49,711 nucleotides of DNA from Gammaproteobacteria bacterium (GTDB taxonomy: Bacteria > Pseudomonadota > Gammaproteobacteria > S144-34), in assembly GCA_026989495.1 (NCBI GenBank), contig JALSJE010000113.1, positions 1 through 49,711 on the forward strand, in the 5' to 3' direction. The notes beneath the pieces are model-generated. The model was given only the letters and a program-made list of their open reading frames with translations. It made no database searches and was not told the origin of the DNA. A program made the position numbers and the translations under genes. Shown piece after piece: positions 10,375 to 19,892 of the stretch (positions are counted from its first letter, which is position 1; every line of letters begins with the position of its first letter).

Positions 10375-11010
10375 ATGCCCGAGCCCGAGCCCCGGCCGGC
10401 GCAGCCCGCCCCGCGTGTGGCCCCCGGCGAGCTGCCCACCCTGCGCGAGGTCCGGCCTCTCAGCTTCATCTTCGAGCAGCGCGGGGCGCTCGCGCCGGCG
10501 GTCTGCCGCGAGGCCATCCGCCGTTTCGAGGCCCACCCGGACGAGCAGTACGAGGGGCGCATCGGCCAGATACCGCTCCAGGACCGCTCGATCAAGCGCT
10601 CCACCGATCTGGTGGTGAGCGGCAAGCCCCACTGGAAGGATATCGACCAGGCCCTGTTCACATCGCTCGCCCGGGCGCTGGAGGAGTTCAGCCGCGCCTT
10701 CCCCTTCTTCCGCGGCCCCTTCCGCGACATGGGCTACGCCATCCAGCGCACGCTTCCTGGCGAGTACTACCACTGGCACATCGACGGCGGCAGCCACAGC
10801 TTCGCCCTGCGCCAGCTCGTGGCCGTGTGGTACCTGAACGACGTGCCGGGCCCGGGCGGCGAGACCGAGTTCCTCTACCAGGACGTGCGCATCCGTCCCG
10901 AGGAGGGCAAGCTCATCCTGTTCCCGCCCTTCTGGACCCACGAGCACCGGGGCGTGACCCTGCAGGAAGGTGTCAAGTACATCGCCACGACCTGGGTCGT
11001 GTTCGCCTGA
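10375..11010 (+). CDS. 2-oxoglutarate/Fe(II)-dependent oxygenase (prolyl-4-hydroxylase type)
   Basis: A 211-aa double-stranded beta-helix oxygenase. The iron ligands are visible as H135-x-D137 in HWHIDGG and a distal histidine in THEHRGVTL (H189 or H191), with a basic residue (K in GVKYIATTW) positioned to bind 2-oxoglutarate. GGETEFLYQDVRIRPEEGKL is the typical major-loop/strand segment of P4H-like enzymes. The substrate is unknown. A possible -10 TAGAAT lies at 10321-10326. It overlaps the following GNAT gene by 41 nt. Confidence 0.85.
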   Translation: MPEPEPRPAQPAPRVAPGELPTLREVRPLSFIFEQRGALAPAVCREAIRRFEAHPDEQYEGRIGQIPLQDRSIKRSTDLVVSGKPHWKDIDQALFTSLARALEEFSRAFPFFRGPFRDMGYAIQRTLPGEYYHWHIDGGSHSFALRQLVAVWYLNDVPGPGGETEFLYQDVRIRPEEGKLILFPPFWTHEHRGVTLQEGVKYIATTWVVFA

Positions 11011-11540: not shown

Positions 11541-11918
11541 GTGACCGCACCCGTGCTGCTGCAGGTGGTCGAGCTCGGGGGCTACCCCGACCTCACCCCC
11601 GTGTTCCGGCGGCTGGGCTTCGAGCCGGTCGTGGCGGCCTCCATGCGCGAGGCCCTCAGGCGGCTGCGGACACTGGCGCCGGCGGCGGTGGTCGCGGAGT
11701 TCAACTACGGGCTGGTGTACGGCTCGCGCATCAGCAATCTGGAGACGCTGATCGCCGCCCTCCAGCGGCATGCGCCCGGGGCCCGGCTCGTGGCGCTCGC
11801 CGAGCCGGAGCGCCTGAAGCATGCCGAGCGGCTCCGGCCGCGCTGGCCCGCGCTCGCGCTCGTGCCGCTGCCGGTGCAGGAGGCGGCGCTCGCCTCCGCG
11901 CTCGGCGTCAGCCGCTGA
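11541..11918 (+). CDS. Degenerate receiver-like protein (125 aa)
   Basis: A single-domain protein with alternating beta/alpha pattern like a CheY receiver. Hydrophobic strands are VLLQVVELG, AAVVAEFNYG and ARLVALAEP. The position normally held by the phospho-accepting Asp reads VVAEFNYG, that is, Glu, so phosphorylation is unlikely. It starts with GTG, 28 nt after the GNAT gene, and probably shares its transcript. Its last 11 nt overlap the convergent 107-aa gene. The fold assignment is inference from pattern only. Confidence 0.6.
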   Translation: MTAPVLLQVVELGGYPDLTPVFRRLGFEPVVAASMREALRRLRTLAPAAVVAEFNYGLVYGSRISNLETLIAALQRHAPGARLVALAEPERLKHAERLRPRWPALALVPLPVQEAALASALGVSR

Positions 11919-12231
11919 CGAATTCGGTATCGAGGGGGTTGCCGGCGGTGTCCACGTGCACCGCGCGCGTGCCCGGCATGCGGGCCAGGATGTAGGCGGC
12001 CATCATCACCTTCATGGCCTCGTTGTCGGTGTGGAGCGCCGTGAGCAGGCGGTCGGCGGCGATCTGACAGCGCACCACGGTGTCAGGCCGCTCCACCCAT
12101 TCGCGTCCCACCTGCCAGCCGCGGTCCATGTCGGCGTCCATGCGCTGGAAGAACGCCTCGGCCTCGGCCAGCAGGTCCTCCGGCACCTCCACCGGGAAGA
12201 CCTGGTCCTCCACGATCACATCGAGCCGCAT
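11908..12231 (-). CDS. Small hypothetical protein (107 aa)
   Basis: An acidic, soluble protein of unknown function. Its N-terminus is MRLDVIVEDQVFPVEVPEDL, followed by a long helical segment rich in Asp/Met (FFQRMDADMDRGWQVG) and a C-terminal helix and strand (NEAMKVMMAAYILARMPG). No cysteine cluster or membrane segment is present. It is divergent from the YbiX-type oxygenase and tail-to-tail with the receiver-like gene. Confidence 0.75.
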   Translation of the reverse strand: MRLDVIVEDQVFPVEVPEDLLAEAEAFFQRMDADMDRGWQVGREWVERPDTVVRCQIAADRLLTALHTDNEAMKVMMAAYILARMPGTRAVHVDTAGNPLDTEFVSG

Positions 12232-12321
12232 CGCATGCCTCCGTCGCTCACCGCCCCGGCGGGCCTGCTACCCTATGCGCTCTCCGCGACCGGCGCAACC
12301 ACGCACGAGGAAAGGAAAGCG

Positions 12322-12996
12322 ATGCTCGTCCAGATTCCGGACCTGCTCGACGCCGGCCAGCTCGCCGCCGTGCGGCGGCTGCTCGAGGACGCGCCCTTCG
12401 TGGACGGCCGGCTCTCGGCCGGCATGGCCGCGCGCCCGGTCAAGCGCAACGAGGAGCTCGATCCCGCTGACCGGCGCATCGAGGCGCTGAACCGCATCGT
12501 CATGGGTGCCCTCACGCGCCATCCGCTCTACCTGAGCGCGGCGCTGCCCCATCGCGTGGCCGTGCCCTTCTACGCCCGCTACCGGCCCGGCATGGCCTAT
12601 GGCGAGCACGTGGACGACCCGGTCATGGGGCCGCCCGGCGGGCGCTACCGCTCGGACGTTTCGGTCACGGTCTTCCTGAACGCCCCGGAGGAGTACGAGG
12701 GCGGCGAGCTCCTGATCCACACGCCCTTCGGCGAGCAGCGGGTGAAGCTCCCGGCCGGCCATGCGCTGCTGTACCCCGCCTCCAGCCGCCACCGGGTGGC
12801 CGAGGTCACCCGCGGCGAGCGGCTGGTGGCCGTGACCTGGGTGCAGAGCCTGGTGCGCGATCCCGCCCGGCGCGAGGTGCTGTTCGAGCTGGACCGCGCA
12901 CGCGAGGCCCTGCTGCGAGCCGACCCCACCGCCGAGCCCGCCCGCCGCGTGCAGGCCGCCTACGCCAACCTCGTGCGCATGTGGGCGGAGCTGTGA
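12322..12996 (+). CDS. YbiX/PiuC-type Fe(II)/2OG hydroxylase
   Basis: A 224-aa PKHD-type oxygenase. H96-x-D98 in YGEHVDDPVM and H157 in SSRHRVAEV form the iron triad. RYRSDVSVTVFLNAPEEY and GGELLIH are the diagnostic strand segments of the YbiX/PiuC family, often associated with iron homeostasis. The ATG follows GAGGAAAGGAAAGCG. Two structural elements lie downstream, a copy of the dispersed repeat and a strong terminator hairpin. Confidence 0.9.
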   Translation: MLVQIPDLLDAGQLAAVRRLLEDAPFVDGRLSAGMAARPVKRNEELDPADRRIEALNRIVMGALTRHPLYLSAALPHRVAVPFYARYRPGMAYGEHVDDPVMGPPGGRYRSDVSVTVFLNAPEEYEGGELLIHTPFGEQRVKLPAGHALLYPASSRHRVAEVTRGERLVAVTWVQSLVRDPARREVLFELDRAREALLRADPTAEPARRVQAAYANLVRMWAEL

Positions 12997-13361: not shown

Positions 13362-13568
13362 TCAGCGGTGCGAGCCCACCTCCTGGTGCGCCAGGTCCAC
13401 CAGCTCCATGGCGGTCTTCATGTACTCCTGGCGGTAGTTGTGCAGCGGATGGCCCTCGTCCGGCACGTAGTAGTCCTTCGGGTCGAGGCCATGCTCGTGC
13501 TCGTACTCGATGAACTTGCGCTGCATCTCCAGCAGCTTCTCGATCAGCTCACGACGCTTGTCCGCCAT
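13362..13568 (-). CDS. Small conserved-looking protein (68 aa)
   Basis: A 68-aa soluble, strongly charged helical protein starting MADKRRELIEKLLEMQRKF and ending AHQEVGSHR, with a central GLDPKDYYVPDEGHPLHNYR turn. There are no cysteines or membrane segments. GGAGG lies 6 nt before the ATG. A dsrA-type palindrome and a TAGAGT -10 box are found upstream, so it may be co-regulated with sulfur oxidation. The function is unknown. Confidence 0.8.
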   Translation of the reverse strand: MADKRRELIEKLLEMQRKFIEYEHEHGLDPKDYYVPDEGHPLHNYRQEYMKTAMELVDLAHQEVGSHR

Positions 13569-13644: not shown

Positions 13645-13689
13645 ACTCTACCGGGCAGCCCGCCCGGGGGCCATATCCCTTTCGGTAGA
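13645..13689 (-). promoter_or_regulatory. Candidate operator and promoter of the 68-aa gene
   Basis: On the minus strand TCTACC-GAAA-GGGATA (13689 to 13674) is followed after 23 nt by TAGAGT (13650 to 13645). The proximal arm GGGATA and the spacing match the sites upstream of the sel1 and grxC genes. The distal arm is degenerate. Confidence 0.5.
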
Positions 13690-13709: not shown

Positions 13710-14420
13710 TCAGGGGCCCTCGCGCGCGGCGGCCTGGCGCACCGGGCGGATGCCCTTGTGGGGCAGGAAGAGCCCGCAGCCCATCACCCGGCCGGCCCCC
13801 ACCCCGCGTTCCTGCACCCTCAGCGAGTCCGCCGGATCGAGGTCGGCCAGCATGAGGCTGCGCGCGAGCCGCCGGCCCTGCGGGGTGCGCAGCGGATGGG
13901 CGCGCCCGCACAGGGCCTTGCGCACCGGCACCCCCATGGCGCGGAGCTCCTCGGCCACCCGGGCCAGGAAGCGCGGCTCGTCGTCCTCCTCGCCCGGCTC
14001 GCACAGCACGTAGCGGGAGAAGATCGTGGGAAGCGGAGCGAGCTCGCGCTCGCGGGCCTCTCCCACCTCGAGGATCTGGCCCAGCACCTCGAGACGGGCG
14101 CCGGTGAGCGTGCGCGCCTCTGCCACGCGCTCGCGCGGCAGGCGCAGGATCAGGCGCGCGCGCCGCGAAAGGTAGATCAGGCCCGTGTCGGGGTCCTCGG
14201 GCCGTTGCCAGCCGTTGCCGGACTCGGCGCCGTGGATGGTATGCACCCCTTCCCCGGGCGTGCCCCCGAGCCAGGGCAGCACCGCCCGCACCGCCTCCGA
14301 GAGCGCGAGCGCATGGTCCACCGGCAGCATGCGGCAACGCACGGCGAAGGCGAGGTCCACCCACCCGCTCGCGGGCGGGGCCTCGGCGGCGCGGTCGTCC
14401 TCCTCCCAGAACAGGCTCAT
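13710..14420 (-). CDS. Stand-alone Cas6/Cmx6-like RAMP protein
   Basis: A 236-aa protein whose whole length follows the pattern I associate with the Cas6 subtype Cmx6 (type I-MYXAN crRNA-processing endoribonuclease). It has VDLAFAVRCRMLPVDHALAL with a D35-H36 pair, then GVHTIHGAESGNGW, RARLILRLPRERV and LAPLPTIFSRYVLCEP. It ends in the glycine-rich loop VQERGVGAGRVMGCGLFLP, the RAMP/Cas6 hallmark that holds RNA. No other cas gene and no CRISPR array is present in the window. The ATG overlaps the stop of the upstream 69-aa gene (ATGA), making a tight three-gene operon with a TauD-type dioxygenase, all next to dsrA. Nuclease activity is not shown; it may act on a non-CRISPR RNA or only bind RNA. 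Confidence 0.75.
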   Translation of the reverse strand: MSLFWEEDDRAAEAPPASGWVDLAFAVRCRMLPVDHALALSEAVRAVLPWLGGTPGEGVHTIHGAESGNGWQRPEDPDTGLIYLSRRARLILRLPRERVAEARTLTGARLEVLGQILEVGEARERELAPLPTIFSRYVLCEPGEEDDEPRFLARVAEELRAMGVPVRKALCGRAHPLRTPQGRRLARSLMLADLDPADSLRVQERGVGAGRVMGCGLFLPHKGIRPVRQAAAREGP

Positions 14421-14626
14421 GGGCCGGTCCCCACGGGGCGGTCCGGGTTCATGAAGGCCGTCTCCAGGATCTCCTCCCAGTCCTCCGGGGTGTCCGGGAA
14501 CTGTGGTCGCACGTCCATGCGCAGGAAGCGCTCGCCCTCGCGCGCGCGCTCCTGCACGGCCTTGACCACGTCCGCGAAGCACTCGAGATCGTGCCGCTGT
14601 ATGAGCAGCTCACTGAGCCACAGCAC
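14417..14626 (-). CDS. Small hypothetical protein (69 aa)
   Basis: A 69-aa acidic protein (MLWLSELLIQRHDLECFADV at its start, DTPEDWEEILETAFMNPDR near its end). The GTG start at 14626 is supported by AGGAGG 9 nt upstream. It overlaps the end of the TauD-type gene by 17 nt and the start of the Cas6-like gene by 4 nt, so it is wedged translationally between the two. No motif is recognised; its fixed position suggests a partner of one of the neighbours. Confidence 0.75.
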   Translation of the reverse strand: MLWLSELLIQRHDLECFADVVKAVQERAREGERFLRMDVRPQFPDTPEDWEEILETAFMNPDRPVGTGP

Positions 14627-15518
14627 GTTTGCGGTCCTCCTTCGCGCCGCGGGGCGCCGCCACGGCGTCGTGGTAGCGCGCCCGGTAGAGCAGCCGCCCG
14701 CCTCCGGGCCCGTCGCGGAAGCCGGTGCGGGCGTGCAGGACGTTGTTCGCGACCAGCGTCTCGCCGGGAGCCAGGCGGTGGCGCAGCACCCAGTCGGGCC
14801 GGCGCTCCGGCAGCGTGCGCAGGCGCTCCACCGCCGCCTGCACCCAGGCATCGGCCTTCCAGACGATGTTCCGCCCACGCGCGGTGTAGCGCAGCTGCAG
14901 GCGCCCGCTCACGGGGTCCACCCAGAAGACCGGCCCCGTACGCGCCGCACGCGCGGCCTCCGGGGCCTCGTTCGGCGGGATGGTCATGGCGTCCGGCGCC
15001 ATGAGCGCCTCCACCAGGGCGGGGTCCGCATCGCGCAGGTCGATGTAGGCGAGCTCGTGGTCCAGAACCAGGCTCTCGCCGCCTTCGGCCGCGGGACGCA
15101 CGCAGTGCAGCACGAACGCCCGCACCCGCCGCTCGGGCGCGTTGTAGTAGCCGTCGGTGTGCCAGCTCAGTGGACGGTCGCTGTAAGGGATGTAGCCCCG
15201 GTGGGGGCCGTCCTCGCGCACCCGCAGGCTGGTGACGGCGTCCTCGTCCGCACAGGGATTGTGATCCAGCCGGCACAGCCCGAGGCGCGCGGCGAAGTCC
15301 CTGAGCTCGTCCTTGCCCAGCGGGCGCGGGAAGCGCACCAGCGCCAGGTTGGCCCGCGCGCATGCGGCGCGCACGGCCTCCAGCGCCGCCTCGCCGGGGT
15401 CGCGCGGGTCGTCCACCGTGACGGCCAGCTCCTCCAGGCGGCGCGGGCGCGCGGCGAGCTTGCGCGCGCGCCAGGCCGCGTAGGCCGCCTCGTCCTGCAG
15501 GTCGAAGGGTCCGCTCAT
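14610..15518 (-). CDS. TauD/TfdA-family dioxygenase
   Basis: A 302-aa 2OG-Fe(II) dioxygenase. Iron ligands are H120-x-D122 in SWHTDGYYNAP and a distal His in NNVLHARTGF (about residue 265), followed by an Arg-rich strand (RLLYRARYHD) expected to bind 2-oxoglutarate. Family members use taurine, other sulfonates, gamma-butyrobetaine and further substrates, and this sequence does not decide between them. The ATG at 15518 begins the conserved region. It is first gene of the operon with the 69-aa and Cas6-like genes, and is divergent from dsrA across a 383-nt regulatory region. Confidence 0.85.
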   Translation of the reverse strand: MSGPFDLQDEAAYAAWRARKLAARPRRLEELAVTVDDPRDPGEAALEAVRAACARANLALVRFPRPLGKDELRDFAARLGLCRLDHNPCADEDAVTSLRVREDGPHRGYIPYSDRPLSWHTDGYYNAPERRVRAFVLHCVRPAAEGGESLVLDHELAYIDLRDADPALVEALMAPDAMTIPPNEAPEAARAARTGPVFWVDPVSGRLQLRYTARGRNIVWKADAWVQAAVERLRTLPERRPDWVLRHRLAPGETLVANNVLHARTGFRDGPGGGRLLYRARYHDAVAAPRGAKEDRKRAVAQ

Positions 15519-15901
15519 GCTCGGGGCCGGGTTCGTCTGTTCGGGCACGCCGCCGGCGGAGTGCCGGCGCCTGTCCACCTTAGGGCCGCTGCCGGGGGCC
15601 GGCAAGGGGCGCGGCAGCGGCCCCCGCCCCCCTATCCCCAATGGGATAGGCGCCAAACAAAGGGGCACCCCATCGGTAGGGTATCCGCGCAAATCCCGGA
15701 ATCCTAGACTTTTCGCCGCGACCTACCGGAGCGGAAGCACCACAACCCGGTGTCGATGATCGGTCCCATCTCCATCTCCTGCGGCGCAGGCCGTCACGCC
15801 GGCGGCCACGACGGGCGTCCGCAGCGAACCCAACTCCAACGACGGATCCACGGCGTCACCCGCGCGGCGGGCGCCGCGAAGGTTCGGTAAGGAGAATCGC
15901 C
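15519..15901. other. Divergent dsrA/TauD-type intergenic region
   Basis: A 383-nt gene-free region. It contains the dsr operator/promoter (15633-15709) and then about 186 nt of presumed dsrA leader with no structure I can name, ending in AAGGAG just before dsrA. No promoter for the dioxygenase operon could be identified with confidence. Confidence 0.6.
15633..15709 (+). promoter_or_regulatory. dsr operon operator sites and promoter
   Basis: Site 1 is a perfect palindrome in its arms, TATCCC-CAAT-GGGATA (15633-15648), extendable by one pair on each side. A second, degenerate site GCACCC-CATC-GGTAGG (15665-15680) is centred 32 bp, or about three helical turns, downstream. TAGACT (15704-15709) follows site 2 by 23 nt and is the likely -10 box, giving a start near 15716. 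That would place the site centres near -43 and -75, as for an activator. The 7-2-7 geometry resembles NarL-family sites; the identity of the regulator is inference. Confidence 0.6.
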
Positions 15902-17170
15902 ATGGCCAAGAAGATCCACGAGACCCCGATGCTCGACGAGCTGGAGAAGGGCCCCTGGCCCAGCTTCATCTCCGGCATCAAGCGCCTCCGTGACCAGCAC
16001 CCCGACGAGCGCATCCGGGGAGTGGCGAACGACCTCCTCGGGCAGCTCGAGCACTCCTACGAGACGCGCAAGGGGTACTGGAAGGGCGGCACCGTCAGCG
16101 TCTACGGCTACGGATCCGGCGTGATCCCGCGCTTCTCCGAGGTGGGCGACGCCTTCCCCGAGTCGCGCGAGTTCCACACCCTGCGCGTGCAGCCGCCCGC
16201 CGGCAACTTCTACACCACCGACATGCTGCGGCAGCTCGCCGACAGCTGGGAGAAGTGGGGCTCGGGTCTGATCACCTTCCATGGCCAGACCGGCAACATC
16301 ATGTTCATCGGCGCCAGCACGGACGCCACCCAGCACTTCTTCGACGAGATCAACGAGTACGGCTGGGACCTCGGTGGCGCCGGTCCCTGCGTGCGCACCG
16401 GCATGTCCTGCGTGGGCGCGGCCCGCTGCGAGATGTCCTGCTGCAACGAGCAGCGCATCCACCGCACGCTGCTGAACCGGTTCACAGACGACGTGCACCG
16501 GCCCTCGCTGCCCTACAAGTTCAAGTTCAAGATCTCCGGCTGCCCCAACGACTGCGTCAACTCGATCGAGCGCTCGGACTTCGCCATCATCGGCATCTGG
16601 CGCGACAACATGAAGATCGACCAGGACGCGGTCAAGGAGTTCATCGAGAAGAAGGGCCGCCAGTACGTCATCGACAACGTCATCACGCGCTGCCCGACCA
16701 ACTGCATGACGCTCACGGATGACGACCGCATCATCGTCAAGGACGAGGACTGCGTGCGCTGCATGCACTGCCTCAACGTCATGCCCAAGGCGCTGCACCC
16801 CGGCGACGACAAGGGCGTGTCCGTCCTCATCGGCGGCAAGCGCACCCTCAAGATCGGCGATCTGATGGGCACCGTGATCGTGCCCTTCATGAAGCTGGAG
16901 ACCGAGGAGGACTACCAGAAGCTGGTCGAGCTCGCCGAGAACGCCATCGACTTCTGGGCCGAGAACGGCCTCGAGCACGAGCGCATCGGCGAGATGATCG
17001 AGCGCATCGGCCTCGTCAACTTCCTCGAGGGCATCGGCGTGGAGCCGGATCCCAACATGGTCCTGCACCCGCGTCAGACGTCCTACGTCCGCACGGACGG
17101 CTGGGACGAGGAGGCGGAGAAGTGGTTCCGCCGCAAGCTCGAGGAGAAGAAGCAGGCGGCGGCCGGCTGA
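15902..17170 (+). CDS. dsrA: Reverse dissimilatory sulfite reductase alpha subunit
   Basis: A 422-aa catalytic subunit of siroheme sulfite reductase, here in the oxidative direction (sulfide or persulfide sulfur to sulfite) in the cytoplasm. Siroheme-[4Fe-4S] cysteines lie in SCVGAARCEMSC (about 167-180) and SGCPNDC (about 213-219). A ferredoxin domain follows (CPTNC near 264 and CVRCMHC near 284-290). AAGGAG precedes the ATG. It opens the operon dsrABEFHCMKLJOPNR. The oxidative assignment rests on the presence of dsrEFH and dsrL and the absence of dsrD. Confidence 0.98.
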   Translation: MAKKIHETPMLDELEKGPWPSFISGIKRLRDQHPDERIRGVANDLLGQLEHSYETRKGYWKGGTVSVYGYGSGVIPRFSEVGDAFPESREFHTLRVQPPAGNFYTTDMLRQLADSWEKWGSGLITFHGQTGNIMFIGASTDATQHFFDEINEYGWDLGGAGPCVRTGMSCVGAARCEMSCCNEQRIHRTLLNRFTDDVHRPSLPYKFKFKISGCPNDCVNSIERSDFAIIGIWRDNMKIDQDAVKEFIEKKGRQYVIDNVITRCPTNCMTLTDDDRIIVKDEDCVRCMHCLNVMPKALHPGDDKGVSVLIGGKRTLKIGDLMGTVIVPFMKLETEEDYQKLVELAENAIDFWAENGLEHERIGEMIERIGLVNFLEGIGVEPDPNMVLHPRQTSYVRTDGWDEEAEKWFRRKLEEKKQAAAG

Positions 17171-17239
17171 GGCCGCCGCCCCTGCCCTCCCGGCGAGGCG
17201 TGAACTGACGACCGGTTTCTGCTTGAGGAGTAACAGGAC

Positions 17240-19866: not shown

Positions 19867-19892
19867 GCGGGGGGCCGGATGCGGCCCCCCGC
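19867..19892 (+). promoter_or_regulatory. Intercistronic hairpin between dsrC and dsrM
   Basis: A perfect 10-bp GC stem (GCGGGGGGCC/GGCCCCCCGC) with GGATGC loop lies 20 nt after the dsrC stop and 28 nt before dsrM. There is no T-run after it, so it is more likely a 3'-end stabiliser or partial attenuator than a full terminator. It could raise dsrC output relative to the membrane-complex genes. Confidence 0.6.

Follow-up and report, generated by a model that had tools for sequence, protein, structure and literature searches.

A Cas6-family protein, encoded in a gene unit linked to dsrA, accompanies the dsr genes across a bacterial class and does so independently of CRISPR. Judged from sequence, this finding comprises the protein family, the predicted fold, a putative active site that has been kept, a single clade, co-occurrence and linkage with dsrA, and the independence from CRISPR. 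In the Cas6 fold, a conserved histidine in the first helix goes with the binding of hairpin RNA and its metal-independent cleavage. The explanation that we favour, tentatively and at somewhat less than even confidence, is that this CRISPR-derived protein left CRISPR and took on a fixed accessory place in the oxidative Dsr gene cluster of the class, that it is made together with a 69-aa protein (p69), probably as a complex, and that it would cut a particular cellular RNA that forms a hairpin, much as CRISPR repeats are cut by Cas6. The likeliest targets would be the dsr and sulfur-oxidation transcripts, whose cleavage would tune the output of each segment. A Cas6 that has been recruited to metabolism and still has its putative active site would clearly exemplify CRISPR machinery taking on housekeeping RNA work.

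Family, fold and conserved residues of the Cas6-like protein

The gene lies at 13710..14420 (including the stop codon) on the minus strand of the window, by which we mean the whole 49,711-nucleotide stretch of contig JALSJE010000113.1 that was analysed, and it encodes 236 amino acids. Searches with curated profiles gave matches above cut-off for both TIGR02807 (118.9 bits; cut-off 98.85) and PF09559 (E = 3.1e-59, 200.6 bits; cut-off 26.7). An AlphaFold model built from 62 relatives (mean pLDDT 90.5) predicts two ferredoxin-like (RAMP) halves and a C-terminal glycine-rich loop. When the PDB was searched with this model, the best 35 matches were all Cas6, the top one being the Cas6 of a type I-B CRISPR-associated transposon (8fcu/8fcj, TM 0.71-0.77); the family profile of the Cas6-like protein also recovered the 8fcj chain from the PDB (E = 4e-26). 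By these profiles and this model, the protein is a true member of the Cas6 family. The initial annotation had read it as a Cas6/Cmx6-like RAMP protein, from a D-H pair and a terminal glycine-rich loop. D35-H36 and the loop glycines G206, G208, G214 and G216 are indeed present and kept in relatives, and the profile and structure comparisons that it had suggested both bore the assignment out, tandem ferredoxin-like halves being what the model predicts.

Among 69 dsr-type sequences, H36 is kept in 99% and D35 in 86%. H36, the putative catalytic histidine by its position in the family, lies in the first helix and is also found in Cas6 from CRISPR loci. R93, R136, Q203, G206, G208, G214-C215-G216 and F218 are likewise kept in this set of 69 and are common to Cas6 of cyanobacterial cas loci. 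The cyanobacterial I-MYXAN Cas6/Cmx6 (TIGR02807/PF09559) falls in the same family and length range and shares the D-H pair, R93, R136, Q203 and the glycine-rich loop. Its genes, in contrast, precede cas3, cas8/cmx8, cas7 and cas5, whereas the dsr-type gene is found with tauD, p69 and dsr; the dsr-type proteins also form a clade of their own and carry the additional conserved residues W5, W71, R87, E148, K168, G172, H221 and K222. In a tree whose outgroup was cyanobacterial sequences only, 64 dsr-type sequences were split from seven cyanobacterial ones by a branch with an SH-aLRT of 98, and sequences from the same host family mostly paired, as vertical descent would give. The direction for the dsr clade, from CRISPR to dsr, is our inference.

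The Cas6-like protein probably cuts or binds some non-CRISPR RNA. That it binds RNA without cutting, either as a post-transcriptional regulator of dsr message stability or translation or as a carrier presenting RNA to its neighbours, seems to us unlikely. A fold of two RRM-like halves suits binding as well as cleavage, and some CRISPR-family relatives of Cas6 do without the histidine at that position: the 8fcj/8fcu protein, which belongs to an RNA-guided transposon complex, has Asn where the dsr-type protein has the His of the D-H pair. This Asn, and the one at the same position in a single dsr-type sequence (L070), also count against the cleavage that we favour. A pure RNA binder, however, would be free to lose H36, and the retention of this residue in the dsr-type set thus counts against it.

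The gene unit and its association with dsrA

Three genes on the minus strand form the core of the unit. The first, tauD (14610..15518), encodes an Fe(II)/2-oxoglutarate dioxygenase (PF02668, E = 1.3e-28) in which the HTD and distal His motifs are present. It is overlapped by the GTG-started p69 gene (14417..14626), whose product has no known family, and the p69 stop codon in turn overlaps the start codon of the Cas6-like gene as ATGA. Downstream of the latter lies p68 (68 aa; 13362..13568, minus strand), a frequent last gene of the unit, and dsrA (TIGR02064, 631 bits; 15902..17170, plus strand) is the divergent neighbour of tauD. This layout, with its overlapping starts and stops and its divergence from dsrA at 15902, is as first described. 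Across loci the typical order, reading away from a divergent dsrA, is tauD, p69, sometimes a gene X, the Cas6-like gene, sometimes a DsrC paralogue, and p68. From tauD through p69 and X to the Cas6-like gene, neighbouring genes are separated by a median of 0 to 25 bases, and dsrA is divergent in 48 of the 60 loci having at least 3.5 kb upstream. A conserved order of genes that overlap or lie close together speaks for the explanation that we favour. The earlier description of a three-gene unit was right as to the linkage of tauD, p69 and the Cas6-like gene, but the unit is not strictly one of three genes, since X (about 235 aa) stands between p69 and the Cas6-like gene in about one third of loci and the DsrC paralogue and p68 often follow. 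That paralogue (PF04358) lacks the C-terminal cysteines, ends in IAGLPESRRKGGY and usually lies directly 3' of the Cas6-like gene (L033, L036, L037 and most other loci); it is absent at the corresponding place in the window. The most faithful partner is p69, whose relatives lie beside the Cas6-like gene in most loci and often stay alongside it where the unit has left dsr. A single-sequence model of p69 with two helices (pTM 0.37) was set aside as too weak to build on. A search for natural fusions joining p69, X or TauD to the Cas6-like protein found none. Two further genes of the window, at 10375-11010 and in the 3' part of 11821-12996 (plus strand), read as Fe(II)/2-oxoglutarate oxygenases; some 20 to 30 of 61 loci have relatives 3' of the Cas6-like unit.

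We surveyed 274 genomes of the window's class, the Gammaproteobacteria. The Cas6-like gene and dsrA were both present in 86 of them, the Cas6-like gene alone in 4, dsrA alone in 8 and neither in 176 (odds ratio 473; p = 4e-56, a value that assumes independence). Since the 274 genomes are related, this p value makes the independent evidence look stronger than it is, a problem that affects the agreement across many family labels to a lesser degree. Each of the 12 exceptions is found at or close to the end of a contig: the contigs of the 4 units without dsrA stop close to the place expected for dsrA, and the 8 dsrA genes without the unit are at most 1.8 kb from such an end, with tauD and p69 still present beside one of them. 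Consequently, the class offers no safe negatives, and the use of in-class dsr operons lacking the Cas6-like gene as controls was dropped. The Cas6-like gene again adjoins dsrA in three further class members from a separate draw. The 80 named loci come from Thioalkalivibrio, Thiohalobacter, Thiogranum, Thiothrix, Parabeggiatoa, Thiomargarita, Marithrix and other gammaproteobacterial genomes. The gene is retained even in genomes of 1.0-1.4 Mb, which argues for a real benefit. A second copy of dsrA was seen elsewhere in the genome in some cases (L201, at G000:C10:14932-16116, and genomes G055, G082, G156, G194, G196 and G218); the dsrA-dsrB spacers of the second copies that were read are short and mostly lack a strong hairpin.

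Outside the class, 48 genomes from a draw across the phylum have dsrA and gave no PF09559 match. This points to a class-specific accessory that is dispensable for Dsr chemistry, and it weighs against the explanation that we favour. At three of the examined loci from the same phylum but outside the class (L230, L231 and L232), tauD-p69 is divergent from dsrA and a siroheme synthase-like gene, named cysG from sequence reading, occupies the position of the Cas6-like gene. It follows that tauD-p69 is the more widespread arrangement, to which this class has added the Cas6-like gene. These observations also bear on the idea that the Cas6-like protein acts on protein, helping to scaffold or assemble Dsr or DsrQ together with p69, X and the DsrC paralogue without cysteines. 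Its partners are indeed sulfur-pathway proteins (DsrQ/TauD and the DsrC paralogue), and the dsr-specific surface residues W5, W71, R87, E148, K168, H221 and K222 are not matched in CRISPR Cas6. The Dsr systems outside the class, some of them with tauD-p69, nevertheless do without the protein, and the Cas6-specific histidine and glycine-rich loop have been retained; we give such a role only a small chance.

The tauD-like gene upstream of dsr was named dsrQ by Lenk 2012, with speculation on a role in sulfonate cleavage (as cited in PMC7596348). By its PF02668 match and its position divergent from the dsr cluster, the tauD of the unit is this gene; the passages on DsrQ in PMC7596348 make no mention of a Cas6-like protein, and that paper nowhere uses the term CRISPR. 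PMC6018796 gives DsrQ and DsrU as proteins of unknown function, and DsrU may name a gene of the Cas6-like unit. In the open-licence literature we found no report of a link between Cas6 and dsr. The initial annotation had put forward as new the recruitment of a CRISPR-type endonuclease family into sulfur metabolism. A member of the family does sit in a dsr-linked unit free of CRISPR genes, in many families of the class; the novelty is partly pre-empted, the TauD beside dsr being DsrQ. mRNA processing and a part in RNA modification, the examples that the annotation gave, stay conjectural.

Independence from CRISPR systems

No CRISPR-like array was found in the window, and neither cas genes nor arrays accompany the Cas6-like gene there or in the units examined. 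The source genome does carry Cas1 and type III-like genes (Csx1/CARF proteins and a weak Cmr1 match) on other contigs. Could the Cas6-like protein act in trans as the Cas6 that serves a CRISPR locus in another part of the genome? The TIGR02807 label is that of an I-MYXAN CRISPR protein, and CRISPR genes exist in the genome. These genes, however, have a different Cas6 of their own (PF10040; PADLOC E = 1.6e-92), likewise on other contigs, and there is no array in the window. Moreover, the association of the Cas6-like gene with Cas1 across the 274 genomes was not significant (p = 0.06) and 48 of its 90 carriers have no Cas1-family match at all; its presence tracks dsrA, nearly one to one and in many families of the class, and not Cas1, in the survey that the initial annotation had called for. 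Action in trans is very improbable, and we conclude that the protein does not belong to a CRISPR system. The earlier statement that the window holds no array or other cas gene stands, and, as far as a 143-contig assembly tells, no CRISPR locus nearby uses the protein. The CRISPR label applied by annotation pipelines obscures a gene that is present lineage-wide and bound up with sulfur oxidation, itself a central step in the global cycling of sulfur, and counts of 'Cas6 present' in the genomes that carry it overstate CRISPR.

A search of phages and plasmids gave no dsrB, and Cas6 relatives on seven cyanobacterial plasmids only. On the Gloeobacter morelensis plasmid pGMOR1 (L108, 5971-6762), a TIGR02807 Cas6 has no cas genes nearby, a second stand-alone setting of the family; the genes beside it carry PAPS-reductase-family and cupin annotations.

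Candidate RNA targets and the shared palindrome

Two hairpins on the plus strand of the window are candidate substrates. One, GCGGCGGCC-loop-GGCCGCCGC (17156..17179), stands at the end of dsrA and overlaps the end of its coding sequence; the other, of 11 bp with a GATG loop, lies between dsrC and dsrM (19867..19892). The median fold z was -2.4 for dsrC-dsrM spacers and -1.8 for dsrA-dsrB spacers, the remaining spacers tested standing out less. Strong hairpins in these two spacers speak for cleavage of dsr transcripts. A hairpin score of at least 20 was found for dsrA-dsrB in 59/104 operons as against 4/18 of those without the Cas6-like gene (Fisher p = 0.01, with phylogeny and spacer length as confounders). 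Among 84 linked operons, 34 have no strong dsrA-dsrB hairpin. In operons without the Cas6-like gene, dsrC-dsrM hairpins were present in 4/6 within the class and 2/4 outside it. Since such hairpins also occur without the gene, which counts against the explanation that we favour, they do not discriminate as a specific substrate and remain candidates only. No common sequence was recognisable among the dsr hairpins. A more specific proposal is that a domesticated Cas6 endoribonuclease cuts the intercistronic dsr hairpins, or else some small RNA linked to dsr, and that the stoichiometry of the sulfur-oxidation machinery is set in this way; a CRISPR RNA-processing enzyme would then have become a regulator of metabolic genes in an entire bacterial class. 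In our view this proposal is possible but doubtful.

The DsrEFH and DsrC proteins are relatives of the tRNA-thiolation proteins TusBCD and TusE. Some other RNA of the cell with ties to sulfur relay, such as a tRNA, an rRNA or a small RNA, might be what the Cas6-like protein processes. The unit is away from dsr in Thiothrix, Parabeggiatoa and Thiomargarita, and an RlmB-like gene (L047) and an RNase III-like gene (L080/L081), both named by sequence reading, are among its neighbours. The neighbours of relocated units nevertheless vary from genome to genome with no consistent theme, and an Rfam search near the unit gave one distant tRNA only and no Rfam family beside it; we regard this role as improbable.

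As to regulation, the divergent dsrA/tauD region of the window contains a perfect palindrome, TATCCC-N4-GGGATA (15633..15648), which is the probable operator of a dsr regulator. With at most 2 mismatches it occurs in 67 of 82 dsrA/tauD regions, where about 1 would be expected, and upstream of p68 in 16 of 51, including the window (13674-13689, 2 mismatches); in dsr-operon spacers it was not found beyond chance. Where the Cas6-like unit sits elsewhere, the palindrome remains with dsrA and the relocated units lack it. Thus the unit shares the palindrome only through its position, and shared regulation was set aside as proof of a common function. A recurrent CCTAGACTT box is also present, at 15703.
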